IMG/VR virus record: IMGVR_UViG_3300049491_000611
Coordinates: 1 to 34,919 of that record
Strand: one strand, 5' to 3'
Origin: a virus
DNA: 34,919 nucleotides
The notes beneath the pieces are model-generated. The model searched no databases, was not told where the DNA came from, and worked only from the letters and a program-made list of their open reading frames with translations. A program made the translations under genes and the position numbers. Of this stretch, positions 2,919 through 34,487 are shown piece by piece; within the stretch, counting starts at the first letter, position 1, and every line of letters begins with the position of its first letter.

Positions 2919-3000
2919 GTTAAACACAACCAACACATTAAACACATTGCACACACTAAAAACATTTAGTACATTGCGCACATTAATCACATAAAACACA
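2919..3000 (+). repeat. Array of short CACAT/ACAC repeats upstream of parA (candidate centromere/operator)
   Basis: About 80 bp made of degenerate short direct repeats such as AACACATTAA, ACACATTGCACACA and GCGCACATTAATCACAT, ending five bases before the first gene of the island. Partition systems with a ribbon-helix-helix partner usually place the centromere, which is also the operator, exactly here as short tandem repeats. The last 22 bp and the start codon closely match a segment upstream of the gene starting at 31603. The centromere role is inference from repeat form and place. Confidence 0.5.
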
Positions 3001-3005
3001 AAATT

Positions 3006-3257
3006 ATGAAAGACAAAAAAATTTTTAGTTTGGAGTACCAGTACCAGCTTTATTTGAAACGGGTGGGTCTTACTGAGGCATTAATGCATAGTGAACAAAG
3101 CATACAAACCCGACAGGCTTTTTTCGGTGCAACTGGCCAAATGTTACTGTTGCTTAGGGATGATATGTATGAATTTGAGGAAGATGAATGCATACAAATA
3201 ATGGAAGATATGGTTAACGAGGTCACACAATATTTTTTAAAACGCACACAAAACTAA
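3006..3257 (+). CDS. Small conserved protein, first gene of the partition island
   Basis: An 83-aa acidic, probably all-helical protein, ending one base before the parA start. It has a hydrophobic middle (ATGQMLLLLRDDMYEFEEDE, residues near 39-58) and no metal or DNA-binding motif I can name. Small proteins of this look are common in Bacteroidota prophages, often close to structural genes. Its strand and immediate coupling to parA place it in the partition operon. It could be an accessory partition or regulatory protein; function unknown. Confidence 0.8.
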   Translation: MKDKKIFSLEYQYQLYLKRVGLTEALMHSEQSIQTRQAFFGATGQMLLLLRDDMYEFEEDECIQIMEDMVNEVTQYFLKRTQN

Positions 3258-3258
3258 A

Positions 3259-4011
3259 ATGACAAAAATTATTGCACTTAGTAACCACAAGGGAGGTGTC
3301 GGCAAAACAACCTCCACAATAAATATCGGGGCGGGGCTTAACCAGTTAAACAAACGGGTTTTGATAATTGACCTTGACCCACAAGCAAATTTATCCTTGT
3401 CCTTGGGCATCCTAAAGGCTCAAAATAATATTTACGGTGCTTTGCGTGGGGATTACCAAATTGAACCATTTGCCGTAATGGAGGGCTTGGATTTAATACC
3501 ATCCGTGATTGAGTTGTCTGCCATTGAAATTGAATTAAGCACAAAACTTGACCGTGAGTATTATCTAAAGGAAATTATTGACCCCATAAAACACAACTAT
3601 GACTACATTTTGATTGATTGCCCCCCATCAATGGGGCTTTTGACCCTTAATGCTTTCACGGCCAGTGATGAAATTTTAATACCATTGCAGTCTGAGTTTT
3701 TGGCAATGCACGGTCTTTCCGAACTTATAAAAGTGATGAAATTAGTGAACAAACGCCTTAACCCTGCCTTGTTTATTGGTGGCATCTTTTTGACCCAGTT
3801 TGACAGCCGTAAAAAGCTAAACAAAGGTGTGTTTAATGAAGTGGTCAAGATATTCCCTGAGGTGGTTTTTAATACCAAAATACGGGATAACGTGGCCTTA
3901 GCTGATGCCCCAAGTTATAAGCTGGATATTTTCAGGCACAACCCCACCAGCAAGGGTGCGGAGGATTATTTGGAACTTTCAAAGGAATTAATTAAAAAAC
4001 ACTCAAAATGA
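3259..4011 (+). CDS. parA: ParA-family partition ATPase
   Basis: 250 aa, the size of small plasmid and phage ParA proteins without an N-terminal DNA-binding domain. The deviant Walker A motif KGGVGKTT is at residues 11-18, with the signature lysine 11 and P-loop lysine 16. DLDPQ at 38-42 is the Walker A' motif, and YILIDCPP near 116-123 is Walker B with Asp120. ParA ATPases drive segregation of low-copy replicons through a centromere-binding partner; the next gene looks like that partner. Being encoded on the plus strand in the middle of a minus-strand tail operon is unusual and suggests insertion of the module. Such a gene implies that the phage persists as a plasmid, which is inference. Confidence 0.93.
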   Translation: MTKIIALSNHKGGVGKTTSTINIGAGLNQLNKRVLIIDLDPQANLSLSLGILKAQNNIYGALRGDYQIEPFAVMEGLDLIPSVIELSAIEIELSTKLDREYYLKEIIDPIKHNYDYILIDCPPSMGLLTLNAFTASDEILIPLQSEFLAMHGLSELIKVMKLVNKRLNPALFIGGIFLTQFDSRKKLNKGVFNEVVKIFPEVVFNTKIRDNVALADAPSYKLDIFRHNPTSKGAEDYLELSKELIKKHSK

Positions 4012-4328
4012 AAACAGAAACAGTAAATGCAGTTGAAGAAAGTAGGTTTGCGGGTATTTTTAGCGGAAATGATGCCCCGATTGCACCAGTAAAAAATGCT
4101 AAAATTGAGAAAAAAGCACCCATAAAACAGCCTGAGCAGGCCGTAAATGAAAAAAGAACCAACATTGAAATGCCTTTGGTGCTTCACGAAAAGCTTACAA
4201 TTATGGCACATTTGGAGTTTTCAACCATAAAAAGAATAATAAATGAAGCCGTTGAAAAGACAATTGTCCAGTATGAAAAGACACACGGGGAACTAAAACG
4301 AGTACCCAAATCACAACGCACCAAATAA
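4008..4328 (+). CDS. Probable centromere-binding partner of ParA (ribbon-helix-helix-like)
   Basis: 106 aa, overlapping the end of parA by ATGA. Residues 1-45 are charged and low in complexity, probably flexible. Residues 48-85 start with the strand-like EMPLVLHEKL followed by two helices (IMAHLEFSTIKRIINEAVEK), the outline of a ribbon-helix-helix DNA-binding domain. The tail is basic. A flexible arm plus RHH domain behind a short ParA is the plan of type Ib partition partners such as ParG and omega. It probably binds the repeat array upstream of 3006 and represses its own operon. The fold is read from pattern, not from a search. Confidence 0.7.
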   Translation: MKTETVNAVEESRFAGIFSGNDAPIAPVKNAKIEKKAPIKQPEQAVNEKRTNIEMPLVLHEKLTIMAHLEFSTIKRIINEAVEKTIVQYEKTHGELKRVPKSQRTK

Positions 4329-4359
4329 AAAAGGGGCTTCATTACGAAGCCCCTTTTTT
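4327..4359. terminator. Bidirectional intrinsic terminator
   Basis: An 8-bp perfect stem GGGGCTTC/GAAGCCCC (4333-4340 with 4346-4353), 5-nt loop, flanked by six A and six T. It works on both strands: it closes the plus-strand partition operon and the minus-strand late operon after the tail tube gene. The two convergent units meet here. Confidence 0.9.
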
Positions 4360-9113: not shown

Positions 9114-10300
9114 AATCCAAGTTTTTTGTATAGGTCATTATACTGTTTTTTGCCCTCTTGGGCTGTCATTGTTTGGTTGGTAATGGCAACGGTTATCAGG
9201 TCTTGAAAAGTTTTAAGAGTGGCAATTTTTTGATTAATGATTATTTGCATAATTGGCAAGTGCATAAAACTGGCCGTTAAACTTTCCCCTGCATCAATTA
9301 ACCCCCAGTGTGAAGCAAAGCTGTTCATTGTATTGTTTGCATCCACTTGGGTGGAGTTTTGGATGTAGTTTAACATTGCACGCTCTTGGTTTTCGTAGGT
9401 ACTGCCATCGTGAAAATAGTTCAGAATGTCTTTATTCATATCAAAAGCAAGGAGGCAAAAAAGGGCATCATTTGACAGCTGTTCATCCAAAAACAGCTTT
9501 TTAAAATCACTCACCAAGTGCGTGGCCTGTATTTTTTGGTTCGTTATAATGACCGATTTTTGGCCAATTTTTCGTAGCATATCTTTTCGGTCAGGCTCTT
9601 GAATTTGCACCTCATTTCCATCACTGGCTGAACTAATAATGTACTTTTGGGAAAACCTCAGGTTAATGTTTTTTGACTTTATGTTTTCCTCAATGTTTTG
9701 CAAAACGTGGTCAATACCTTGCACCCGTGACCGTGACTGCATAGGGCTGTTTTTGCTCATTCCATTAGCCAAATCATAAAACGGGATTATGCTTTTAAGG
9801 GGTAATTTGTAGTCCTGACCATCCAGCGTATAAACAATTTTTTGTTCCTCGTATTCCTTAATATCACCCTTTGTGGTAATGAATTTTTTTAGTTTATTGG
9901 TGTCCTTAAAATCAATTTCACTGGGTATAAGGTTGTAAAGTGCGGAGGGGTCTTTGCCTGAAAGTACTTCGTAGCAGTAGTCATTTCCTGTGGCTGAAAG
10001 AAACCACATTTGGCAAAATAAAAAGTCCTCTTGGGACTGGAAGTAATTTGGCTGTTTAAATAATTTGATGTAGGGGCTGTCAACTACTTCTTTGCCATTG
10101 CGGTCAAAATGCTGGATTTTCATTTGGCTGTAAATCTTTGCACGTAGTGCGCAAATAGTCATAAGCACAAAATTCTCATAGGATAAATTAAGGTACGAGG
10201 TTGACTTTTTCAGCCCATCTAATTCTGAGCCGTAGTACCAAACATTTCCCATTCTATCCCTTTCACCAAAAATCCCTCTCAATGTGTCTAGCCACCCCAT
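9110..10300 (-). CDS. Portal protein (HK97 family)
   Basis: 396 aa, the usual length for HK97-type portals. It begins MGWLDTLRGIFG and has the typical early segment with AlaLeuArgAlaLys (residues ~50) and DSPYIKLFKQPN, then QEDFLFCQMWFLSATGNDYCYE, the clip/wing region and a C-terminal helix. The portal forms the dodecameric ring at the capsid vertex through which terminase pumps DNA. Order TerS-TerL-portal-protease-capsid is standard. An 80-bp gap upstream with an AT-rich palindrome separates it from TerL. Confidence 0.87.
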   Translation of the reverse strand: MGWLDTLRGIFGERDRMGNVWYYGSELDGLKKSTSYLNLSYENFVLMTICALRAKIYSQMKIQHFDRNGKEVVDSPYIKLFKQPNYFQSQEDFLFCQMWFLSATGNDYCYEVLSGKDPSALYNLIPSEIDFKDTNKLKKFITTKGDIKEYEEQKIVYTLDGQDYKLPLKSIIPFYDLANGMSKNSPMQSRSRVQGIDHVLQNIEENIKSKNINLRFSQKYIISSASDGNEVQIQEPDRKDMLRKIGQKSVIITNQKIQATHLVSDFKKLFLDEQLSNDALFCLLAFDMNKDILNYFHDGSTYENQERAMLNYIQNSTQVDANNTMNSFASHWGLIDAGESLTASFMHLPIMQIIINQKIATLKTFQDLITVAITNQTMTAQEGKKQYNDLYKKLGL

Positions 10301-12218: not shown

Positions 12219-12716
12219 TCATTTAGGTTTCCAGCTTTTGGAAAATTCCTTGTCATTGAAAATTTGGGTTTTTGGTATGCCTGCATTGAATAACAGGCGC
12301 ACAACTTCCTCCTTTTCCATCCCCAGTCTATTCATTATTTCCTTGCCATCCACACCAGCATTTACCATTTCTTCCACAATTTTACTCATTTCTAGCACCC
12401 CGTGCGTTCCCCTTGCTCGGTTGTGTCTTATGGTGGCCATTTGTTGCTGACTGGCATCTTTCGGACTTATTACCACAACAGGCACTAAACCCCCAGTTAA
12501 GTCAAATATTTCCTTGTGACCTGAAACTGTCCACCTATGGAAGCCATCAACAATTGTCTTGTCAGGATTTATGACAATGGGCTGTGTCCAGCCATCCTCT
12601 AAAATACTAATTTTCAACAACTTAAGTTCAGGCGGTGCAACCCTGTTCGGGTTGTAGCCATTAGGGGAAAGTTCCTCACGATTAATCCATTGTATATTGT
12701 CTAAGGGCTGTTTCAT
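12219..12716 (-). CDS. ParB-fold protein, IbrB-like partner of PAPS-reductase-like gene
   Basis: 165 aa. An N-terminal ParB/sulfiredoxin-like domain shows NPDKTIVDGFHRWTVSG (residues ~50-66), in which GFHRW takes the place of the nucleotide-binding GERR box of true ParB, and then TIRHNRARGTHG. The C-terminal third is an HTH-like helix pair (IMNRLGMEKEEVVRLLFNAG). It overlaps the PAPS-reductase-like gene by ATGA. The same pair is known in E. coli as IbrA/IbrB, prophage-associated regulators of eib genes, and occurs in many phages. It is not a partition protein in this context. Whether it is a regulator or a nucleotide-dependent DNA-modifying enzyme is open. Confidence 0.75.
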   Translation of the reverse strand: MKQPLDNIQWINREELSPNGYNPNRVAPPELKLLKISILEDGWTQPIVINPDKTIVDGFHRWTVSGHKEIFDLTGGLVPVVVISPKDASQQQMATIRHNRARGTHGVLEMSKIVEEMVNAGVDGKEIMNRLGMEKEEVVRLLFNAGIPKTQIFNDKEFSKSWKPK

Positions 12717-14741: not shown

Positions 14742-15326
14742 CTATTTTTTTTGATTATAAACCCGTATTATTTCCATCAGTGCATCTTCAATTTTCTCAA
14801 ATGCGAATTCAATTTTTATGCTATTCAAAAGGTCAATTAATTTTATTTTGTTTTGGTGTTCCATAATCAGTTCAAAGGTGCTGAAACCATCATCGGAGGC
14901 ACGGCCAGCACTTGCCGTGGTTTCCTCGTTATCTTCATCAATATTAAACATTTCACTGTCAGGATTCCACACTGGCAACCCCCATTCCTCCAGCAAGTCA
15001 GTATCCCATTCGTTGGCCAAAGCCTCCCAATCCCATTCACCACCAGCCACATTATCCTTAATCAAAAATTCCCGTTCCTGCTCAGGGGTTAAATCCTTTG
15101 CAATGATAACGGGAATTTCAGTGAGGCCAGCTTCAATGCAGGCTTTGTATCGCATATTACCACCCAAAATAATGAAGTCTTTATTCACCACAATGGGGCG
15201 TATTTCAAGCATTTGCGGGAAATCAGTTATGGATTGTACCAGTTTTTTAAATTTGTCATCCTTAATAATGCGGGGGTTATTTGGATTGACTTTTATTTTA
15301 CTAACTTTCAATATCTGTACGTTCAT
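14742..15326 (-). CDS. ParB-fold protein, second copy in cassette
   Basis: 194 aa. The N-terminal ParB/Srx domain reads PNNPRIIKDDKFKKLVQSI, then IILGGNMRYKACIEAGLTEI, then LTPEQEREFLIKDNVAGGEW and the acidic WDWEALANEWD. Proteins with exactly this layout are frequent beside phage methylases and terminases. The rest is acidic (DEDNEETTAS) and ends in a helix pair. The GNMR motif replaces the GERR box of CTP-dependent ParB. It overlaps the 66-aa gene upstream by 26 bp and is 2 bp from the cupin gene. Role unknown; a nucleotide-dependent phosphotransfer or nicking activity is possible for the fold. Confidence 0.82.
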   Translation of the reverse strand: MNVQILKVSKIKVNPNNPRIIKDDKFKKLVQSITDFPQMLEIRPIVVNKDFIILGGNMRYKACIEAGLTEIPVIIAKDLTPEQEREFLIKDNVAGGEWDWEALANEWDTDLLEEWGLPVWNPDSEMFNIDEDNEETTASAGRASDDGFSTFELIMEHQNKIKLIDLLNSIKIEFAFEKIEDALMEIIRVYNQKK

Positions 15327-17909: not shown

Positions 17910-18122
17910 TTAAATTTTGTTTTTTTCAATTTCGGCAATGCTGTCTATCAGGTTTATTTGATTGTGAACCCTGCCTTTGTCAATGTTATGCAATTCTTTT
18001 TCCACCGCTTTGGCAATAATAGCCTTAAGCCGTTTTTCACCAATCTTTTGAAGCTTGTTGCCCTCAATCAAAAAGTAAGCCTGTACTTTTTTACTTCCAT
18101 CAGTTATTTTATTGCGCCCCAT
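17910..18122 (-). CDS. Small basic protein, possibly DNA-binding
   Basis: 70 aa, rich in Lys. Residues 11-28 (KKVQAYFLIEGNKLQKIG) could be a strand followed by helices (KRLKAIIAKAVEKELHNI), an outline that would fit a ribbon-helix-helix repressor, but the match is not firm. It is the first gene after a TACATTTG box and so may head the 18.1-15.6 kb unit. Function unknown. Confidence 0.65.
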   Translation of the reverse strand: MGRNKITDGSKKVQAYFLIEGNKLQKIGEKRLKAIIAKAVEKELHNIDKGRVHNQINLIDSIAEIEKNKI

Positions 18123-18177: not shown

Positions 18178-18393
18178 TTAAAACTTAATTTTTACCAAAT
18201 ACCACCCAGCAACAAACAACACATAAAAAAGCAATATCCAAACCACGGCCAGCATAATTTTTACAATCATCAGAACAATATTTATGAATAAAATTTGCTT
18301 TTGGAAACGCTTGTTTATTTCGTCAACTCGTTCCAAATGTTCCTTTTCAGCTGGGGTCAATTGTTTGTCTTCCTTTGGTGGTGTTTCAGTCAT
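18178..18393 (-). CDS. Small membrane protein
   Basis: 71 aa. An acidic, soluble N-terminus with TPAEKEHLERVDEINKRF is followed by a long hydrophobic stretch (residues ~34-66, ILFINIVLMIVKIMLAVVWI then LLFYVLFVAGWYLV), enough for one long or two short membrane helices, and a basic end. Holins can look like this, but it is far from any lysis gene. It overlaps the HTH gene upstream by 8 bp. Confidence 0.7.
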   Translation of the reverse strand: MTETPPKEDKQLTPAEKEHLERVDEINKRFQKQILFINIVLMIVKIMLAVVWILLFYVLFVAGWYLVKIKF

Positions 18394-18610
18394 TTTTCAT
18401 ATTTTTTCGTTTCTCATAAATAAAGGCATCAATGTAACGGTTTACGGTGCTTTCATTTAATCCTGTAAGCTGTGCAATATGCCAGCTTTTATTCAAAATA
18501 ACGCCTTTATCATTGGCAAATTTGACCTTGCCAGTAAAATAATTTTCAATTAGCTGTTTTTGCTCAGCTGTCAATCTTTTGGGGCTGGGTGTATAGTTTG
18601 AAAGTTTCAT
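18386..18610 (-). CDS. Small helix-turn-helix protein
   Basis: 74 aa. The C-terminal half has a plausible HTH (SWHIAQLTGLNESTVNRYID), with the conserved-type Gly in the turn and a polar recognition helix, followed by a basic tail EKRKNMK. The N-terminus is basic. This could be a repressor or replication accessory protein. It is the first gene after the terminator at 18621-18658 and has no clear own promoter. Confidence 0.68.
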   Translation of the reverse strand: MKLSNYTPSPKRLTAEQKQLIENYFTGKVKFANDKGVILNKSWHIAQLTGLNESTVNRYIDAFIYEKRKNMKND

Positions 18611-19954: not shown

Positions 19955-21973
19955 TTATACTGCTTTGGGTGCAACCCTTAAAACTTCATCCTGTGGGCTT
20001 ACTACCAAATTAATAATTTGGCTTTCGCATTCAATAATATCCGTAACTGACTCACGGTTATCAATAATAATCGGGGCTTGCACTTGGTAAAAACCGCAAA
20101 GCATATTTATAATATCCAGCCCAATATTCAAACGGCCAGCGGTGTTGACATTAGTATAAGGCACACCATTCAAAAGGGCTTCACAACAAGGCACTTCACC
20201 CCCGTTAATTTGCTGTTCAAACATTTTGAATTTCACATACTGCAATTTGCTATTAATGCTGTTTTCAAGTGCTTCAATTTTTACCCTATTGAAGTTGTCA
20301 ATAATAAACTGGGTGCGCTCCACATCCAAAATTTGCTGGCTCAAAATGGTTTCCTCAGCCTGTAGTTTTTTCACACGGTCATCAGCCAATTTTATTTGGT
20401 CTTTGGTGTGCATTTTTTTGTTCAGTTCCAAAATTTCGGCCACCAGTGCGTTTTTGTTGGTAATTAATTCAGAATAGTCAATTTTAGGAATTTCCACGAT
20501 GCTGGCCTCAGTGGTGGTAATTTCAGCAAGTTTTTGGTGGTGTAATTCATCACTGGCCAGTAAAGCTTTGTAGATTTCATTCTCCACCAAAACCACCGTG
20601 TTTGCCTGCAAATTTGTTTCCTCAGCCATCAACTCCACGCCCGTGGCCGTTAATGTTTCAATGAACTTTTTGCCCTCCTGAATCCTCAAATTAATTGCAT
20701 CAACTTCCGTTTGCTGGTTTTCCATAATGGCAATCAATGACTTTGCGGAAGTGGTAATTTTGGCCAGTTCCACTTTTTTGCTGGCAATGAAATCAGCGTG
20801 CATTTTGGTTTTTTGGGCTTCAATATCCGTGGCCTCAAAAGCACGTTTGCACGTAGGGCAATCAAAACACCCAGCTTCAAAATCCAGCGTTTTGGCGTTT
20901 TCCACGTGCCACTCAGCACGCTTTGCATCCACCTTGCTTTTGGTGTCCAAAATTTCGGTTTTAAGCAGTTCAGCTTTCCCAGTTAAGGTAGTAATTTTAT
21001 TCTGTGCGATAGTGATATTCCCAGCGTTTTCAGTGATTTTAGCCTGTAATTCAACCAAGTTTTTGTTTTGATCTTGAACCTGTTTTTTGGCTTTTTCACG
21101 CAAAACGCTTTCATTCATTGAAACCCAGTTTTTAAGTAGGTTTAGTTTGCTTTTGACCTCGTTGTTTTTGGTAATTTCAGTGTCGTACATACCTGATTTA
21201 TCCTGAATATCAGCATCAATTTTTTCCAAAAAGCCCTGTTTAGTTTCCAGCAAATAACTAATTTGTTTGAAGTCCAAAGCCTCAGGCGTATTGCGCACCA
21301 CTTCATCAATGCGGGTTGGAATGGCTTTTAAATCCTCTTTAGCCTTTTTGATGCTGGCTTGGATTTCCTTGTTATATTCCTCCAGCGTTTTGGTGGTGCT
21401 TAGTTTGGTCAAAAGCTTTTCAAAATCACGGTTTCCGTGTGCCAGCTGGGTGTCGGAAATTTTATCGGCAATTTTTACCAGCACCTCACGCCTGTCTTGC
21501 CATTTCAAGGACATAAAGCTGGCAGGGTTGGTTATTAGTTTGAAAACGGTTTCTTCACAAATCAAACTCACCTTTTCTTGGTACTCACGGGCTGTTCCCA
21601 GTGGCACATCATTCCAGTAGTGTTCAATTGTGTTGCCAGTGAATTCAGTGGTTGCTGAGCCTTTTTTCTTAGTCCATTTTTCAGTCAAAATTTTACGCAA
21701 AACAACAGTTTCACCATCCACCAAAAAAGTGGCCGTTACTTCGTGGTCCAGCTTTTCAATAACTTGGTTTTTTTCATTCAGCGTTTTCAATTCAAAATCT
21801 TTGCGGTCTTGGGAATCCTTGCCAAACAACACCCACGTAACGGCATCAAAAATAGTTGTTTTGCCAGCTTTGTTTGCTCCAAAAATATCAGTGTTATGTT
21901 CAAAATCAATGGACTGAAATTTAATGCCTTTGAAGTTTACCAGCTGGATGTTTTTAAGTTCTATGTTTTTCAT
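19955..21973 (-). CDS. SbcC/Rad50-like ATPase
   Basis: 672 aa, short for SbcC (about 1000) but with the full plan. GANKAGKTT at residues 32-40 is the Walker A motif, with Lys in place of the usual Gly at position four. Long coiled-coil arms flank CFDCPTC at about residues 366-372, a zinc-hook-like CxxC. The ABC signature region is weak, and APIIIDNRES near the C-terminus is the Walker B/D-loop segment with Asp-Asn-Arg-Glu. Such proteins tether DNA ends, usually with an Mre11/SbcD nuclease; none is visible here. Its partner may be RecT or a host nuclease. It is coupled to the 82-aa gene by ATGA. Confidence 0.85.
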   Translation of the reverse strand: MKNIELKNIQLVNFKGIKFQSIDFEHNTDIFGANKAGKTTIFDAVTWVLFGKDSQDRKDFELKTLNEKNQVIEKLDHEVTATFLVDGETVVLRKILTEKWTKKKGSATTEFTGNTIEHYWNDVPLGTAREYQEKVSLICEETVFKLITNPASFMSLKWQDRREVLVKIADKISDTQLAHGNRDFEKLLTKLSTTKTLEEYNKEIQASIKKAKEDLKAIPTRIDEVVRNTPEALDFKQISYLLETKQGFLEKIDADIQDKSGMYDTEITKNNEVKSKLNLLKNWVSMNESVLREKAKKQVQDQNKNLVELQAKITENAGNITIAQNKITTLTGKAELLKTEILDTKSKVDAKRAEWHVENAKTLDFEAGCFDCPTCKRAFEATDIEAQKTKMHADFIASKKVELAKITTSAKSLIAIMENQQTEVDAINLRIQEGKKFIETLTATGVELMAEETNLQANTVVLVENEIYKALLASDELHHQKLAEITTTEASIVEIPKIDYSELITNKNALVAEILELNKKMHTKDQIKLADDRVKKLQAEETILSQQILDVERTQFIIDNFNRVKIEALENSINSKLQYVKFKMFEQQINGGEVPCCEALLNGVPYTNVNTAGRLNIGLDIINMLCGFYQVQAPIIIDNRESVTDIIECESQIINLVVSPQDEVLRVAPKAV

Positions 21974-22218
21974 TTTTTCTTGATTTTAAAAATTTTTTTT
22001 GCGGGTGTTGCTGGTACTATCTTTTCCAGTTCCGTGTCATACTTTGTAATTATACATTTTTTGTTCACGTAGGAGGCATTTTTTTTGATTCTTGACACGG
22101 TGTGGGATGAAACCCCAACCCAGTCATTTTTTGGGTCATCAAACAGTTCGGCCAGTGTGTCATAATTGGAAACTTCGCCTGTTGACCTGTTTTCCAATCG
22201 GTAAGCTAATTTTTTCAT
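21970..22218 (-). CDS. Small NUMOD-like basic protein
   Basis: 82 aa, basic. It contains GVSSHTVSRIKKNASYVNKK (residues ~35-54), which has the look of a NUMOD-type DNA-binding motif with a helix and a Lys-rich loop, but no nuclease domain. A Lys-rich tail follows. A palindrome of the shared operator family lies 25 bp upstream of its start. It may be a DNA-binding accessory for the ATPase/RecT operon; function inferred. Confidence 0.68.
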   Translation of the reverse strand: MKKLAYRLENRSTGEVSNYDTLAELFDDPKNDWVGVSSHTVSRIKKNASYVNKKCIITKYDTELEKIVPATPAKKIFKIKKK

Positions 22219-22237
22219 AATGTTATCTTTAGAACGC

Positions 22238-22270
22238 CAAAAATACGAAATAAGTTTATTTTATTTCGTA
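22238..22270 (-). promoter_or_regulatory. Operator palindrome 1 with -7-like box
   Basis: TACGAAATA (22244-22252), 9-bp spacer, TATTTCGTA (22262-22270): a perfect inverted repeat of the same build as the three sites at 23.5, 25.2 and 25.8 kb, with one symmetric change per half. On the minus strand the box TATTTTTG (22238-22245) overlaps the palindrome. No clear TTTG lies at -33. Confidence 0.6.
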
Positions 22271-22297
22271 TTTTAAACGTTAAAATTTTCGGGTTTT

Positions 22298-22834: not shown

Positions 22835-23416
22835 TTATTGATTTAAGATTCTATTAGCAATTTTTAAAAGTTCAATTGATTTTTCAACGTTTCCGTTTTT
22901 GTTGTATTGTGAGGCCTGTTTTTCGATATTTTGGCACATTTCCAAAACTTCATCAGCATCAAAAATATTTAACTCACGGCAATAAATGCACTCCCCAGCA
23001 ATGGTCAAACGGCCATCAAAATACGTTTGATACTTCAAATAAAATTTTAGGGTTGTATTGTCAAAATTCCTGCTCACTCTTTCAGCTGAATGGTAAGGAC
23101 AGTCACAAAACAAATTGATTCCCTCACCGCCTGCTGGGTTTTTGTGAAAAACCAAAGGTTTGTGAAAAGACTGTTTTTCAGCTTTTGCCATTTCAAGCAC
23201 GAATTCCTCGTGTTCCTCAGTGTGAAAAACCGAAATATTACCAATTGCTTTTCCATCAAATCTTGGAAAAGGAAAAGCAAAAAAGCATTTGTTTGCTGGG
23301 TTTAAATACGCTTTTGCATCATCATCCCCTAATTGTTTTTCAAGCATTTCTTTTGTTGCATAATATGCTTTTCCACAAGTACCAATTTTCGTTCCGTTGT
23401 TTGTAAAATCTCCCAT
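22835..23416 (-). CDS. Hypothetical protein with Cys pairs, 193 aa
   Basis: A soluble protein with an aromatic core (NKCFFAFPFPRFDGKAIGNI) and two Cys groups, FCDCPYHS near 105-112 and GECIYCREL near 143-150, which could bind a metal together. The C-terminal 40 residues are helical (CQNIEKQASQYN...SIELLKIANRIL). It is the first gene of a unit controlled by operator 2. No family recognised. Confidence 0.7.
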   Translation of the reverse strand: MGDFTNNGTKIGTCGKAYYATKEMLEKQLGDDDAKAYLNPANKCFFAFPFPRFDGKAIGNISVFHTEEHEEFVLEMAKAEKQSFHKPLVFHKNPAGGEGINLFCDCPYHSAERVSRNFDNTTLKFYLKYQTYFDGRLTIAGECIYCRELNIFDADEVLEMCQNIEKQASQYNKNGNVEKSIELLKIANRILNQ

Positions 23417-23453: not shown

Positions 23454-23511
23454 CAAATCTAGTGTAAATGATTAAAACTACAAAATAAAAAATCATTTAT
23501 TTTGTAGTTTT
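23454..23511 (-). promoter_or_regulatory. Operator palindrome 2 over a promoter
   Basis: A perfect 16-bp inverted repeat (23474-23489 with 23496-23511) containing the core TACAAAATA...TATTTTGTA. On the minus strand the TTTG inside the core (23481-23484) is separated by exactly 19 bp from TAGATTTG (23454-23461), so the palindrome covers the -33 box of a Bacteroidota promoter that drives the gene starting at 23416. Confidence 0.75.
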
Positions 23512-23515
23512 TTTG

Positions 23516-23668
23516 TTAAGTAAATAATTGCCAGTTAGTTACAATTGCTTCACTGGCCAGCTTTTTGGCCTCAGGCCTGCTGAAACCCGAATTTATAAAC
23601 TCAGCAATCAGTTCTTTTTTTATTTCCGTGGCCAGTGCGTTGGGCTGGCCTGCTGGGGATGCTTCCAT
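23516..23668 (-). CDS. Small UBA-like helical protein
   Basis: 50 aa from the ATG at 23668, one base after the preceding stop; an in-frame ATG at 23746 would give a hydrophobic N-terminus that only mirrors the membrane segment of the overlapping gene. The core LIAEFINSGFSRPEAKKLAS resembles the three-helix UBA-like repeat. Last gene of its unit, just upstream of operator 2. Function unknown. Confidence 0.6.
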   Translation of the reverse strand: MEASPAGQPNALATEIKKELIAEFINSGFSRPEAKKLASEAIVTNWQLFT

Positions 23669-23669
23669 A

Positions 23670-23864
23670 TTAGTTTTTTTTGTTGTTAAGTAGCAGGGCA
23701 ACACCAGCAAAAGACAATAAAAACAAGTTGCAATTAATGTTTTCACTTAAAAATAAGTCAATGGTTAGGAAAGCAACCACTAGGGCTAAAATAACATTTA
23801 TGCCGTTTCTAACTATTCTAATGTTGTTCAGGTCGGCAATTTCTACAAGGTTTGATTTTTTCAT
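23670..23864 (-). CDS. Small two-helix membrane protein
   Basis: 64 aa with two hydrophobic segments, GINVILALVVAFLTIDLFL (residues ~21-39) and LFLLSFAGVALLL (~46-59), a basic N-terminus and a Lys/Asn end. A hairpin membrane protein of holin-like size, but it sits among early genes, so a role in lysis is not supported. It is 3 bp from the 44-aa gene upstream. Confidence 0.68.
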   Translation of the reverse strand: MKKSNLVEIADLNNIRIVRNGINVILALVVAFLTIDLFLSENINCNLFLLSFAGVALLLNNKKN

Positions 23865-23867
23865 AAT

Positions 23868-24002
23868 CTAATTTTTTTGGGCTTCGGTGTCAATTTTTGA
23901 AATAAAAGCTATTGTTTGCCATAGTGTCAAAAAATGCCTTTCGTGGTCTTTTTTAACCACCGTATAAAATACGGTGGTTTGCTTGGTGGTAGTGATTTTC
24001 AT
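23868..24002 (-). CDS. 44-aa protein in early cluster
   Basis: A short frame from ATG 24002 to TAG 23868 that fills the only gap between two genes, with 2 bp to the gene upstream and 3 bp to the one downstream. The product begins MKITTTKQTTVFYTVVKKD and ends TLWQTIAFISKIDTEAQKN; basic, one short amphipathic helix. An internal repeat ACCACCGTA/TACGGTGGT in its DNA can form a hairpin. The tiling is the main evidence for a real gene. Confidence 0.6.
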   Translation of the reverse strand: MKITTTKQTTVFYTVVKKDHERHFLTLWQTIAFISKIDTEAQKN

Positions 24003-24004
24003 AA

Positions 24005-24226
24005 TTAAGCAAATTTTAATTTAAACCTTTGGACTAAAACACTGACCCCAGCCCTCAAATCCCCTGTAACATAATCCAGCAAGCTTTCGGCATCCTCGTC
24101 AATCAGTTCATTGTATGCCTGCTCATTTGTTATGCCGTAATGGTTGGCCACGTTTGAAAGAATTAAATCTTTGGTTTGGGCATCTATCGTATTTAAAAAA
24201 ACGAATGTGAATTTTGAATTTTTCAT
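24005..24226 (-). CDS. Hypothetical acidic protein, 73 aa
   Basis: Soluble, with an acidic middle (NEQAYNELIDEDAESLLDYV) and a basic, hydrophobic end (VLVQRFKLKFA). Predicted helical. It is tightly tiled with its neighbours (2 bp on each side) in the unit driven from operator 3. No motif recognised. Confidence 0.68.
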   Translation of the reverse strand: MKNSKFTFVFLNTIDAQTKDLILSNVANHYGITNEQAYNELIDEDAESLLDYVTGDLRAGVSVLVQRFKLKFA

Positions 24227-24228
24227 AA

Positions 24229-24699
24229 TTAGAATTTTTTGGTGAAAAAACAGGTTGGTAGTTTTGCGGATTCCTCACGCATCCACGCACGGGCTTTGGC
24301 GTGCGTTGCTATCCTGCCATCATTGTGGCTCAGAATGGTTAATTTATCGTGTTCAATGCCTGCCAGTTCAGGGAACTTTTCAACCACTTTTTTGCAGGCT
24401 TCTTCATCATCCAAGCCCATAGTGAAAAAACCATAAGCAAAACCACCGCTTGTCAAACTACTGCTATAACTCACCTCCTGTAAAAAACGGATGCCATCAA
24501 CTAAGTAAATAACATAATAATCAAAATCATAAATTGAGCCTTTGGTTTTGAAAAACCTAACCTCCTGAGCCATCAAATATCCATCCACTGTTTTGTTCCA
24601 CTCGTACTGATTATAATCTTTTTGGGTGGCCTGTTTAACTTCCTCAGCGGAAACAAATTTCCCACTTAAATTTTTTAGTATTTTAACTGATTCTAGCAT
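24229..24699 (-). CDS. Hypothetical protein, 156 aa
   Basis: A soluble mixed alpha/beta protein. Noteworthy stretches are FDYYVIYLVDGIRFLQEVSY and SSLTSGGFAYGFFTMGLDDE, then a helical domain ending KARAWMREESAKLPTCFF. No catalytic motif is recognisable. Second gene from the left in the operator-3 unit. Confidence 0.7.
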   Translation of the reverse strand: MLESVKILKNLSGKFVSAEEVKQATQKDYNQYEWNKTVDGYLMAQEVRFFKTKGSIYDFDYYVIYLVDGIRFLQEVSYSSSLTSGGFAYGFFTMGLDDEEACKKVVEKFPELAGIEHDKLTILSHNDGRIATHAKARAWMREESAKLPTCFFTKKF

Positions 24700-24701
24700 A
24701 A

Positions 24702-24950
24702 TTAAAGCGTTATTAGGTTTTTATTTGAAATTTTAAATTTTAGGCCAGCGTTTGCATAGCTGATAAACTGGTTCATTTTCATAATTACTTTATTGCGGGT
24801 GTCCTCAACAACAGCAACAACCATCGGAGTTCCCTCGTAGGTAATTCTATCGCCAATTTCACGGGCAAATTTTGAGTTATAATAAACTACCATTACCAAA
24901 CGCCCATCAGGGCTAATTTTAGCTAAACCAGTATGATTTTCAGTTGCCAT
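24702..24950 (-). CDS. Hypothetical beta-rich protein, 82 aa
   Basis: Small soluble protein, mainly strands (GRLVMVVYYNSKFAREIGDR; MVVAVVEDTRNKVIMKMNQF). It could be an SH3- or OB-like barrel. Lies 2 bp before the 156-aa gene. No family recognised. Confidence 0.66.
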   Translation of the reverse strand: MATENHTGLAKISPDGRLVMVVYYNSKFAREIGDRITYEGTPMVVAVVEDTRNKVIMKMNQFISYANAGLKFKISNKNLITL

Positions 24951-24962
24951 AATTTTTATTTT

Positions 24963-25163
24963 TTAAAAGTTGGTTAATATTTCAGTGTTCAGGTTTGAGT
25001 TGAAAATGTGGCCAGCGTATTTTTTATAACCGCCCTCCTTGATCATTTTTCTGATTTCTTTTTGAGCCTCTTTTTTGGTTTCAAAATCCAAAACCTTAAC
25101 CGTTTGGGTTGTTGTCATTGAATAACCTGATTCCATAGTTTCAATTGTTAATGTGAAAGCCAT
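24963..25163 (-). CDS. Hypothetical protein, 66 aa, first gene behind operator 3
   Basis: A soluble protein with N-terminal strands (MAFTLTIETMESGYSMTTTQ) and a lysine-rich helix (ETKKEAQKEIRKMIKEGGYK). It is the first gene of the 25.2-23.5 kb unit, with a leader of about 25 nt from the promoter at 25196-25226. First-gene products of repressed phage units are often regulators or host-takeover factors, but nothing specific is visible. Confidence 0.66.
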   Translation of the reverse strand: MAFTLTIETMESGYSMTTTQTVKVLDFETKKEAQKEIRKMIKEGGYKKYAGHIFNSNLNTEILTNF

Positions 25164-25195
25164 AATTATATTTTTTACTGGGTTTTTAACTGTTG

Positions 25196-25255
25196 CAAAT
25201 CTACAACCATTATTCCAATATACAAAATAAAAATAATCTATTTTGTATATTGGAA
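25196..25255 (-). promoter_or_regulatory. Operator palindrome 3 over a promoter
   Basis: A perfect 17-bp inverted repeat (25213-25229 with 25239-25255) with 9-bp spacer, core TACAAAATA...TATTTTGTA. On the minus strand TTTG (25223-25226) lies 19 bp from TAGATTTG (25196-25203). Same geometry as sites 2 and 4. Confidence 0.78.
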
Positions 25256-25262
25256 CATAAAT

Positions 25263-25466
25263 TTAACATTTAGGGCTTTGTTTGACTTTCCAAAAACCAA
25301 CAACGTACTCCCCTAGAATATCAAAAAACTCACTCCTAGCAACCGAGGGAATGTGAACTACCTCATTTAACATACCATAATTGCTTACCATTATTTCAGT
25401 GGCATATTTACTGAAAACTGAGGTACTAACTTTGTAATTGCCTTGCATTTTTACACTTGATTCCAT
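25263..25466 (-). CDS. Hypothetical protein, 67 aa
   Basis: Soluble, Ser/Val-rich, mixed strands (KVSTSVFSKYATEIMVSNYG; FFDILGEYVVGFWKVKQSPK). It is the second gene of the operator-4 unit, 1 bp after the 92-aa gene, and ends just before operator 3. No family recognised. Confidence 0.65.
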   Translation of the reverse strand: MESSVKMQGNYKVSTSVFSKYATEIMVSNYGMLNEVVHIPSVARSEFFDILGEYVVGFWKVKQSPKC

Positions 25467-25467
25467 A

Positions 25468-25746
25468 TTAATCTAAATTTAAAGTTTTGCCATCATACCA
25501 CGCCTGAGCGCCATCATTATTCACAACGTTTCTAGGTGTTAAAACAAAATCCACATTGCAGTTTTGCCACATTTTTTTTGCCTCCAGTTTGCGTTTTGCG
25601 TATTGTGGAGTAGAACGAATTGCATTAAAAATTTTGATGTAACCAGCTCTTTTCCAGTCATTCCACGCTTTTTTTAATGCTTGACTAAAAGTTACTTTGT
25701 ATTTTCTAAAGGTTGCCCAAGCTGTTTTGAAAAGTTGTGATTTCAT
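25468..25746 (-). CDS. Basic helical protein with KAW motif, 92 aa
   Basis: 92 aa from the ATG at 25746 (MKSQLFKTAW); the in-frame ATG at 25779 would place its start on the promoter's -7 box. The N-terminal run KVTFSQALKKAWNDWKRAG is a short motif common to many small Bacteroidota phage and mobile-element proteins. It is basic (DNA or RNA binding possible) and ends QAWYDGKTLNLD. First gene behind operator 4. Function unknown. Confidence 0.7.
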   Translation of the reverse strand: MKSQLFKTAWATFRKYKVTFSQALKKAWNDWKRAGYIKIFNAIRSTPQYAKRKLEAKKMWQNCNVDFVLTPRNVVNNDGAQAWYDGKTLNLD

Positions 25747-25776
25747 AGTGTTTGTATTTTTAGTTCTTAACTGGGG

Positions 25777-25834
25777 CAAAGATATAACCCTTTTTCAAAT
25801 CTACAAAATAAAAAACAATCTATTTTGTATATTT
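25777..25834 (-). promoter_or_regulatory. Operator palindrome 4 over a promoter
   Basis: TACAAAATA (25802-25810), 10-bp spacer, TATTTTGTA (25821-25829), with flanks extending the symmetry. On the minus strand TTTG (25804-25807) lies 19 bp from TATCTTTG (25777-25784). A second -7-like TAGATTTG (25796-25803) overlaps the left half-site. Confidence 0.75.
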
Positions 25835-25876: not shown

Positions 25877-26056
25877 TTAATGATTTTTTTTGGCGTTTTC
25901 GATTCTGCGTTTCAAATTGAAGAACTGATCAAAATAATATTTTTCCACGAAGCCACATTCAGCATAGGTTTTGCCGTTTATGTGCCAGCGTGCGCCAATT
26001 ATCTTGATTTTTAATTTAATCGGTAATTCGCTTTGAAGCTTTTTAAATTCATCCAT
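25877..26056 (-). CDS. Hypothetical protein, 59 aa
   Basis: From the ATG at 26056 (MDEFKKLQSE). A small basic, soluble protein with a compact core (LKIKIIGARWHINGKTYAEC) and a helical end (FFNLKRRIENAKKN). It overlaps the end of the small membrane protein gene by 8 bp. Last gene of the replication-initiator unit before operator 4. No family recognised. Confidence 0.62.
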   Translation of the reverse strand: MDEFKKLQSELPIKLKIKIIGARWHINGKTYAECGFVEKYYFDQFFNLKRRIENAKKNH

Positions 26057-32716: not shown

Positions 32717-32920
32717 TTAAGGTTCTAAAGTTATCCCAGCTTCTAGCAAAATTTTATCAATTTCAATCATAACCGCCTTTCCGCAATTACGCAAACCCAT
32801 TATTTTTTTTCGGGGCAAAAGTTGCAAATCTGCCAAAATTTGGAAGCCAGCACCCCGCAAACAGTTTTTTGTTCTTGCAGTACAAACAAGGTCAATTATT
32901 TTTGTGTTTTCTGTTATCAT
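32717..32920 (-). CDS. RNA polymerase alpha C-terminal-domain-like protein
   Basis: 67 aa from the ATG at 32920, coupled by ATGA to the gene upstream (a GTG at 32926 would add two residues). TARTKNCLRGAGFQILADLQ, then LRNCGKAVMIEIDKILLEAG ITL follows the two helix-hairpin-helix turns of the bacterial alpha-CTD ('R..N.L....i.t..dL', 'n.G.ks..Ei...L...gl.L'). In bacteria that domain binds UP elements and activators. A free phage-encoded copy could redirect host polymerase. The fold is likely; the role is inferred. Confidence 0.78.
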   Translation of the reverse strand: MITENTKIIDLVCTARTKNCLRGAGFQILADLQLLPRKKIMGLRNCGKAVMIEIDKILLEAGITLEP

Positions 32921-33318
32921 AACCACGTTTCAACTATTTTTTGATCATCGCTTTCATCCCTCGGGATTTTAAACAAACCCATTCCAAAAAGTTTCTCCCT
33001 AATTTTATCCAAATCGGCATCAACCATAAAAACCTCCATTGCAACGGGTTCGTTTTCGGGTGGTACAACTTCCCACCTACGGGCAACAAACGTATCGGGG
33101 TAATCGGTCGGGCTATTGTAAATCGTGTACAAATTCATATTTTTTTTAATTAGGTGTTTTATTGTGTTGTTGGTGTAATGCTGTTTGCAAACTTTATGAA
33201 GCTTTGTGAAAGCCCGCATAGTTGCGCACATTTCAGTTAAGGGCATCGGAAGCACTAAATAAAAATCCCCTTTGCAGTGGGTGCAAAACATGCTATTTCC
33301 ATTTATTAATGAAGCCAT
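32917..33318 (-). CDS. Two-part protein: Cys domain joined to a YPD..VARRW domain
   Basis: 133 aa. Residues 1-49 (FCTHCKGDFYLVLPMPLTEM ... FTKLHKVCKQH) match the look of a small stand-alone phage zinc protein. Residues 61-133 (LYTIYNSPTDYPDTFVARRW) match another small stand-alone protein. The join (residues 50-60, codons ACC AAC AAC ACA ATA AAA...) looks like a translated spacer. An internal ATG at 33138 would give the second part alone (73 aa). Either a fusion, or two genes in one frame that lost a stop. Functions unknown. Confidence 0.7.
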   Translation of the reverse strand: MASLINGNSMFCTHCKGDFYLVLPMPLTEMCATMRAFTKLHKVCKQHYTNNTIKHLIKKNMNLYTIYNSPTDYPDTFVARRWEVVPPENEPVAMEVFMVDADLDKIREKLFGMGLFKIPRDESDDQKIVETWL

Positions 33319-33767: not shown

Positions 33768-34322
33768 TTATAGATTTAGGTAAATATCGTTCAATTCCTC
33801 TTGTCGTATGCCTAAATAAACCCGTGTCGTGCGTAGGTCGCTATGATTAAACAACTCGGATAAATAAATTAGACTTGATTCGGTTTCTTGGTTGTTTTTA
33901 TAAACCCTACGGCCAAAGGATTTTCTTAGTGTGTGGGTGCTTATGTTAAGCCCGCTTTTTACATCTTTTTCAAAAACCTTTTTGAGCATTCGGTTTAAAT
34001 GCCAAATTGTAACGACCCCGCCTTTTTGAGTAATAAAAGGGCTACCAGTATAATCGGGTTCAATTATTGAATGTATGGCTTCGTTTATGGCAATTTTTTT
34101 CTTTTTGTCCGTTTTTTGCTCCTTAACAAAAAGGGTTTCTTTTTTTAGGTCGTCCCAAGTTAATTTCAAAACATCGGAACACCGCAAACCAGTATTTAAA
34201 GAAATGGTAATGTAATCCGCAATAAGTTTTTGCTTTGGGTTTTTGCGCAACCTTAAAACTACTCCAACGATATAATCAAAATCTAAGTAGTCGCATTTTG
34301 TGTTTGAATCCTTCAATGACAT
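33768..34322 (-). CDS. Minimal tyrosine recombinase
   Basis: 184 aa from the ATG at 34322 (MSLKDSNTK); a longer frame to 34412 runs through the promoter box. It is a catalytic domain: Arg47 in TGLRCSD, a Lys-rich beta hairpin (KTDKKKKI, ~71-77), His130-x-x-Arg133 in HTLRKSFGRR, His160 in LFNHSD and the nucleophile Tyr169 in TTRVYLG. The usual N-terminal core-binding and arm-binding domains are missing, as in FimB/FimE-size recombinases. It could integrate the phage, invert DNA or resolve dimers. The lox-like inverted repeat 126 bp upstream is a likely substrate. Confidence 0.88.
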   Translation of the reverse strand: MSLKDSNTKCDYLDFDYIVGVVLRLRKNPKQKLIADYITISLNTGLRCSDVLKLTWDDLKKETLFVKEQKTDKKKKIAINEAIHSIIEPDYTGSPFITQKGGVVTIWHLNRMLKKVFEKDVKSGLNISTHTLRKSFGRRVYKNNQETESSLIYLSELFNHSDLRTTRVYLGIRQEELNDIYLNL

Positions 34323-34337
34323 AATTTCCTTTTTGAC

Positions 34338-34345
34338 CAAAGATA
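34338..34345 (-). promoter_or_regulatory. -7 box of the recombinase gene
   Basis: TATCTTTG on the minus strand, 15 bp before the ATG at 34322, so the leader would be very short or absent. No TTTG at -33. The 60 bp upstream are A/T-rich. Confidence 0.45.
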
Positions 34346-34447
34346 AACAAAAATGTACACTTTTAACGTATTTAGAATAAAATTGCACATTTACAAATTG
34401 CAAAAAAATCAAATTTTTTTAACTACCTAAAAATCAGCCCCCATTCT

Positions 34448-34482
34448 GAAAATGTCCACTAATGTACTTAGTGGACATTTTC
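34448..34482. repeat. Perfect 15-bp inverted repeat (lox-like) upstream of the recombinase
   Basis: GAAAATGTCCACTAA (34448-34462), TGTAC, TTAGTGGACATTTTC (34468-34482). Read as 13-bp arms and a 9-bp centre it has the size of loxP (13-8-13). It has no T-run that would make it a terminator, and it stands between a real terminator and the recombinase promoter. Likely a recombinase crossover site or an operator. Confidence 0.7.
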
Positions 34483-34487
34483 AAGCA

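Follow-up and report, generated by a model that had tools for sequence, protein, structure and literature searches.

Palindromic promoters of the window

This study concerns a palindrome that recurs at promoters of the virus record IMGVR_UViG_3300049491_000611, of which positions 1 to 34,919 (the whole 34,919-bp stretch, referred to here as the window) were analyzed. The terminases of named phages nearest to that of the window are those of Flavobacterium phages (42-44%), and for this reason the host is probably a flavobacterium. A search with the SbcC-like ATPase returned 12 relatives, two of which are contigs 68% identical in that protein: G006 (L023; 3300023260_000003; 37,996 bp) and G007 (L024; 39,547 bp). 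The features at the locus are collected in Table 1.

The palindrome TACAAAATA-N9/10-TATTTTGTA is present in three copies in the window (W1 to W3), compared with a mean of 0.00 across 100 dinucleotide shuffles. On the minus strand of these core sites, the right half holds TTTG, which is followed after exactly 19 bp by TAnnTTTG (TAGATTTG, TAGATTTG, and TATCTTTG, respectively). When both strands of the window were searched for TTTG-N19-TAnnTTTG, only three matches were retrieved, all on the minus strand and all at palindromes, and each of the three promoters stands 5' of a co-directional minus-strand open reading frame (ORF). The box consensus used for these promoter calls was taken from PMC9723704; following F. 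psychrophilum, the -7 box was placed at -12 to -5.

A sequence-only reading of this region had proposed three sites with a common palindrome and a 9- to 10-bp gap, in which the minus-strand TTTG serves as the -33 element and TAnnTTTG follows at 19 bp. Three exact copies were recovered, the spacing was exact at three of three sites, and the judgment that chance is a very unlikely source agrees with the shuffles. The perfect arms of 16 and 17 bp that it assigned to sites 2 and 3 belong instead to sites 1 and 2. It also did not pick up a fourth related palindrome (W4), whose half-site is that of W1 to W3 with a symmetric A-to-G/T-to-C change. Chance or AT-richness as the source of the palindromes was ruled out by the shuffles together with scans of the relatives. 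Bidirectional promoters were likewise rejected, as the mirrored plus-strand positions at the three sites match TAnnTTTG at 2, 4, and 2 of 6 positions.

Table 1. Palindromes, predicted promoters, adjoining ORFs, and candidate regulators in the window
Feature	Coordinates	Strand	Description
Site W1	23479..23506	-	TACAAAATA-N10-TATTTTGTA; arms reach 23474-23511, 16 nt perfect; class I
W1 promoter of 22835-23416	23454..23484	-	TTTG 23484-23481, N19, TAGATTTG 23461-23454
ORF after W1, 193 aa	22835..23416	-	No family match; no G006/G007 ortholog found
Site W2	25221..25247	-	TACAAAATA-N9-TATTTTGTA; 17-nt perfect arms, 25213-25255; class I
W2 promoter of 24963-25163	25196..25226	-	TTTG 25226-25223, N19, TAGATTTG 25203-25196
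ORF after W2, 66 aa	24963..25163	-	83% identity to G007:17638-17838
Site W3	25802..25829	-	TACAAAATA-N10-TATTTTGTA; 14-nt arms at 93%; class I plus abutting TAGATTTG
W3 promoter of 25468-25746	25777..25807	-	TTTG 25807-25804, N19, TATCTTTG 25784-25777
ORF after W3, 92 aa	25468..25746	-	Orthologs G006:24950-25225 (40%) and G007:18076-18351 (39%)
Site W4	22244..22270	-	TACGAAATA-N9-TATTTCGTA; longer arms 22233-22281 (86%); class II, abuts TATTTTTG (22245-22238)
Candidate regulator, 82 aa	21970..22218	-	Directly after W4; 76-77% identical in G006/G007
Candidate regulator, 74 aa	18386..18610	-	Further along the co-directional gene run beginning at 21970-22218; conserved in G006/G007
Third candidate, Arc-like protein beside ParA	4008..4328	+	Adjacent 9-bp iteron array suggests another binding site

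Two promoter geometries are found among the 12 sites of the window and its two relatives. In class I (N19; 7 sites), the TATTTTGTA right half is also the -33 element, and the palindrome is centered near -43 relative to a transcription start predicted 5 nt beyond the -7 box. In class II (5 sites, with site B4 of G007 included at 5 of 6 box matches), the right half touches the -7 box and the palindrome is centered near -24. Site W3 carries both boxes, one at N19 and one abutting. In both classes, the sites overlap core promoter elements in a fixed register, and the predicted 5' untranslated regions downstream of W1, W2, W3, and W4 are 33, 28, 26, and 15 nt long.

Recurrence in related phages

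G006 and G007 were scanned first for the palindrome alone, and promoters were sought afterwards; we regard this as the best out-of-sample test. Among the five sites with at least 17 of 18 matches, TAnnTTTG lies at exactly N19 in three (P = 6e-8, computed from the TAnnTTTG frequency in the genome) and abuts the palindrome in two. With at least 16 of 18 matches, eight sites were retrieved, of which four are at N19, three are abutting, and one (G006:33133) is neither (i.e., 7/8 fit), the N19 rule having been set beforehand by the sequence-only reading, whereas the abutting rule was made post hoc with the data already seen. The twelfth site, G007:38553, matches at only 15 of 18 positions and was admitted for its location and its 5-of-6 abutting box. 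There are four sites per phage: three exact copies and one variant in the window, four in G006, and four in G007. Across all 12, the half-sites remain symmetric (TACnAnnTA/TAnnTnGnA). A motif score built from the same 12 sites, and therefore circular by construction, separates the four sites of each phage from the background, in which the next best matches score 17.7, 18.7, and 13.4 bits.

The sites also recur at corresponding genes. Site W3 is equivalent to A1 (G006:24869-24894) and B1 (G007:18609-18634), such that one junction, flanked by orthologs of 25877-26056 (60-65% identity) and 25468-25746 (39-40%), carries the palindrome in three of three phages. Site W2 is equivalent to B2 (G007:17900-17925), the same palindrome-promoter preceding the gene conserved at 83% identity; in G006, a site at 25375 occupies the place of W2, but the gene after it differs. 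Site W4 is equivalent to A3 (G006:26297-26322) and B3 (G007:17447-17472), each standing upstream of the 82-aa gene, which is followed by the SbcC-like ATPase gene. For W1, comparison of gene neighbors revealed no counterpart site in the relatives. A4 (G006:5466) and B4 (G007:38553) lie in divergent intergenic regions and precede a small lipoprotein-like gene oriented opposite to its late-gene neighbors. This gene (L063:5197-5436 and L066:19608-19847), which has its own class II palindrome-promoter, is likely a moron. In all, a single symmetric site type recurs at at least two phage promoters and at orthologous genes in relatives. The sequence-only reading, which held that lack of conservation before the same genes in relatives would count against it, is upheld in this respect: palindromes occur at the same gene junctions of G006 and G007 with the same 19-bp spacing, and its proposal of one motif common to several promoters stands, with chance excluded.

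The exact palindrome was present in four of eight records searched (G006, G007, G011, and G012) and absent from the other four (those of L022, L025, L029, and L032). A DNA-level search of the region against the "phages" collection gave zero matches. The Flavobacterium phages snork and filifjonk (L098 and L099), which are terminase relatives, have promoters without the palindrome; filifjonk has a single 22-bit motif match and no promoter with it. Plasmid records contained no related terminase, and among the ATPase matches listed, all were from Firmicutes. The composite of palindrome and N19 promoter was retrieved from the viral_contigs collection in four stretches (G006, G007, and two contigs sharing an identical site). 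Each of 18 viral stretches with a gap of 10 holds a single site, as does each of 50 stretches from a further viral search. Of these 50, more than one came from only two contigs, G006 (two) and G013 (three), and at most of the other sites a promoter is absent in both registers. G013 (3300020045_009535; 31,286 bp) carries the exact palindrome three times with a gap of 7. One copy adjoins a TTTG-N19-TATATTTG promoter whose spacer contains a third half-site. The other two (L131, about 9735-9860; L124, about 1130-1280) are embedded in longer symmetric elements that have TTGATAATCAA-like repeats on their flanks, and a TTTG-N19 promoter of that kind was not seen at either. The similarity of G013 to the three phages is weak and confined to nuclease, ATPase, terminase, and tape-measure proteins.

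Operator, hairpin, or promoter

We consider it fairly probable (roughly 60%) that the palindromes are operators of one phage-encoded regulator, probably a repressive one. In this model, a single regulator with sequence specificity, most likely a phage product and possibly dimeric, would bind palindromes laid over sigma-A-type Bacteroidota promoters (TTTG-N19-TAnnTTTG) and would control accessory and replication/recombination operons of the phage, perhaps early in infection. Because promoter elements would be covered upon binding in class I and class II alike, repression would be the likeliest action. A class II site stands before 21970-22218 in each of the three phages, which suggests that the operon containing both small DNA-binding candidates is under feedback.

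For the 82-aa product of this operon, Pfam gave a weak LacI-type helix-turn-helix (HTH) match (E = 0.018), and its structural model is of low confidence (predicted local distance difference test [pLDDT] score of 57). A structure search with this model returned only noise and no fold match, PDB sequence searches were uninformative, and no homologs were found beyond G006 and G007. The 74-aa product yields a three-helix HTH model (pLDDT, 69.5), for which Foldseek ranks homeodomains highest (probability up to 0.97; E = 0.33). The sequence-only reading had named 18386-18610 and 17910-18122 as possible regulators; the former models as an HTH protein, while the latter has no Pfam or PHROGs match. As that reading had also noted, no CI-like repressor is obvious: neither Xre HTH (HTH_3) nor Peptidase_S24 was detected by Pfam in 50 window ORFs, with structural and some other ORFs outside the scan and the contig possibly incomplete. 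The ParA/Arc-like pair is a less likely source of the regulator, as the par operon has its own 9-bp iterons, and the Arc-like protein probably serves these iterons before its own operon.

Several observations weigh against the operator model. The outer flanks pair within sites at 51 of 60 positions (5 positions at each of 12 sites) compared with a permutation mean of 40.5 (P = 1e-4), in a permutation that is not fully independent because the sites are related; class I sites alone give 31/35 flank pairs (P = 0.007). The flanks of W2 (TTCCAATA/TATTGGAA) are unlike those of its counterpart B2 (TATTTAAAAC/GTTTTAAATA), yet each set is self-complementary. Such co-variation within sites would not be expected for a fixed operator, and a gap that changes from 8 in G006 and G007 to 9-10 in the window does not sit easily with a rigid dimer. 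At class II sites, no TTTG is clearly recognizable as a -33 box. Because the right half is widespread as a promoter element in Bacteroidales genomes, the pattern partly reflects promoter conservation, and the operator may be only a portion of the palindrome. In G013, neither the 82-aa nor the 74-aa candidate has a convincing homolog (blastp, E up to 1), and the factor of G013, if any, would therefore differ or be that of the host. The 82-aa candidate combines a weak HTH score with a poor model, the 74-aa candidate offers fold resemblance only, and all comparisons are based on three related contigs.

Co-varying flanks and a varying gap would fit either a hairpin cassette or a mutational template-switch process. 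The former, which we judge unlikely but the best placed of the alternatives, is that the inverted repeat acts as a structure (a read-through RNA hairpin or extruded DNA), is joined to a promoter, and is carried with small accessory gene cassettes, in the manner of the promoter/stem-loop cassettes of T4-type phages. In addition to the excess pairing of the flanks and the divergent but self-complementary flanks of W2 and B2, 9 of 10 sites subjected to RNA folding (B3 and B4 outside the set) beat shuffles at a z score of -3 or lower. The sites also divide gene blocks that vary among the three phages, and one class II site accompanies the lipoprotein gene at the same place in G006 and G007. However, A3 hardly folds (z = -1.24; 23/200 shuffles as good), and it still has both half-sites and the -7 box. 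The stems are A/T-dominated and mostly without a following U-run, although the same phages have ordinary G+C terminators (4327-4359 in the window; before the integrase gene). In addition, A4 and B4 lie between divergent genes, and the core sequence itself is conserved beyond mere pairing. A related reading appears rather doubtful to us: that the palindrome is a self-complementary promoter element that acts by base pairing, instead of or besides protein. Its -33 or -7 box would be part of, or adjacent to, the arm of a hairpin or cruciform, co-variation would keep the arms paired, and the element would move together with accessory genes, forming a modular promoter cassette of Bacteroidota phages. 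A conventional terminator as the sole function was rejected, since most sites have no U-run and a terminator for the upstream gene would be useless at the divergent A4 and B4. Recombinase core sites (spacers of 7-10 bp; a tyrosine recombinase is present) were ruled out because spacer sequence and length vary within the window.

The second alternative is that no regulator exists and that the sites are strong promoters in which the -33 element is extended (TATTTTGTA) and the left part is A-rich and UP-like, the palindrome having arisen through mutational template switching between near-complementary flanks. Template switching of this kind would likewise produce flank co-variation. The pattern TATTTTGTA-N17-TAnnTTTG occurs at 61 sites in four Bacteroidales genomes, compared with 0 for the reversed pattern, and these host promoters usually follow A-rich sequence. 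When 30 such host sites were read, however, the full left half was present in two, both of which were pattern-selected, and 8 of 9 left-half positions matched in two. Because the right half is common in host promoters and the left half is rare there, the right half is to be seen as an ordinary extended -33 promoter element and the left half as the special part. Class II sites keep the palindrome though the right half there is not the -33 element, and there are four sites per phage where none is expected. On balance, we find this explanation improbable. A search of 84,980 species genomes for the palindrome-promoter composite retrieved 21 stretches, 20 of them titled as Bacteroidales groups and 1 as a Bacteroidetes bacterium; the matches precede varied, unrelated genes, with one site each in four genomes checked, and are best read as extremes of a common promoter form.

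A host-encoded regulator whose operators were borrowed by several Bacteroidota phages is very improbable. The three gap-7 palindromes of G013, one beside a promoter, would suit such a factor in a contig without a convincing candidate homolog, but the plain palindrome was found in 2/395 Bacteroidota genomes, exactly as for the reversed control, leaving a host chromosomal regulon unsupported in a set that may not include the true host and for the exact motif only.

Other features and comparison with known systems

Additional features of the window were recorded. Approximately eight 9-bp iterons (CACATTAAA-like; spacing, 9) at 2925-3003 lie upstream of 3006-3257, the ParA gene (3259-4011), and the Arc-like gene; together, these suggest a partition operon with centromere-like repeats and a plasmid-like stage. 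On the minus strand, 32717-32926 encodes a 69-aa protein that is a stand-alone C-terminal domain of RNA polymerase alpha (Pfam E = 4.6e-8); no G006/G007 ortholog is listed for this protein, which could act on UP elements. A 16-nt perfect inverted repeat (TGAAAATGTCCACTAA; gap, 5) at 34447-34483, between a G+C terminator and the tyrosine recombinase gene (33768-34412), is possibly an attachment site; at the same place, G006 has a different perfect 14-nt repeat, and G007 has an imperfect 20-nt repeat. Genes for two ParB_N-domain proteins (12219-12716 and 14742-15326; Pfam E = 1.8e-4 and 4e-9) lie in the run that separates the replication genes from the terminase gene.

The operator model resembles the well-known lambda CI/Cro-type multi-operator regulons, in which one symmetric sequence likewise occurs at several phage promoters, overlaps promoter elements, and is conserved in relatives. 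The window differs in that no Xre/S24 repressor was found in the 50 scanned ORFs and in that its sites are single rather than clustered triplets. Ribbon-helix-helix regulators such as omega of pSM19035 are alike in pairing ParA with an Arc-like protein and in having sites at several promoters, but the iteron array of the par operon here is unlike the palindrome. Flavobacterium sigma-A promoters, as described in the available portion of PMC9723704, share the TAnnTTTG -7 box at -12 to -5 with the window, and a palindrome over the promoter is not described in that portion. The promoter/stem-loop (PeSL) cassettes of T4-type phages (Arbiol 2010 and Comeau 2014, as cited in PMC4503421) likewise combine a promoter with an inverted repeat, in short intergenic stretches that separate small genes open to exchange. 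Unlike PeSL cassettes as described there, the palindrome stems reported here contain or abut promoter boxes, mostly lack a terminator U-run, and retain a fixed core at fixed spacing. In the open-licence PMC literature, to which our search was confined, we found no description of an operator regulon of a Flavobacterium phage.

The three phages form a small group that carries one palindrome at several promoters and probably infects Flavobacterium-like bacteria; the palindrome may be a switch through which one regulator controls those genes together. In kind, this would be a phage regulon from a host group that has received little study. The motif is exact and testable, each phage has four sites, two small proteins are candidates for the regulator, and the co-varying flanks would allow direct discrimination between a protein operator and a structural element. 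In a phylum whose promoters are unusual, the system would offer a well-defined circuit of phage control and possibly a promoter that can be regulated at will.

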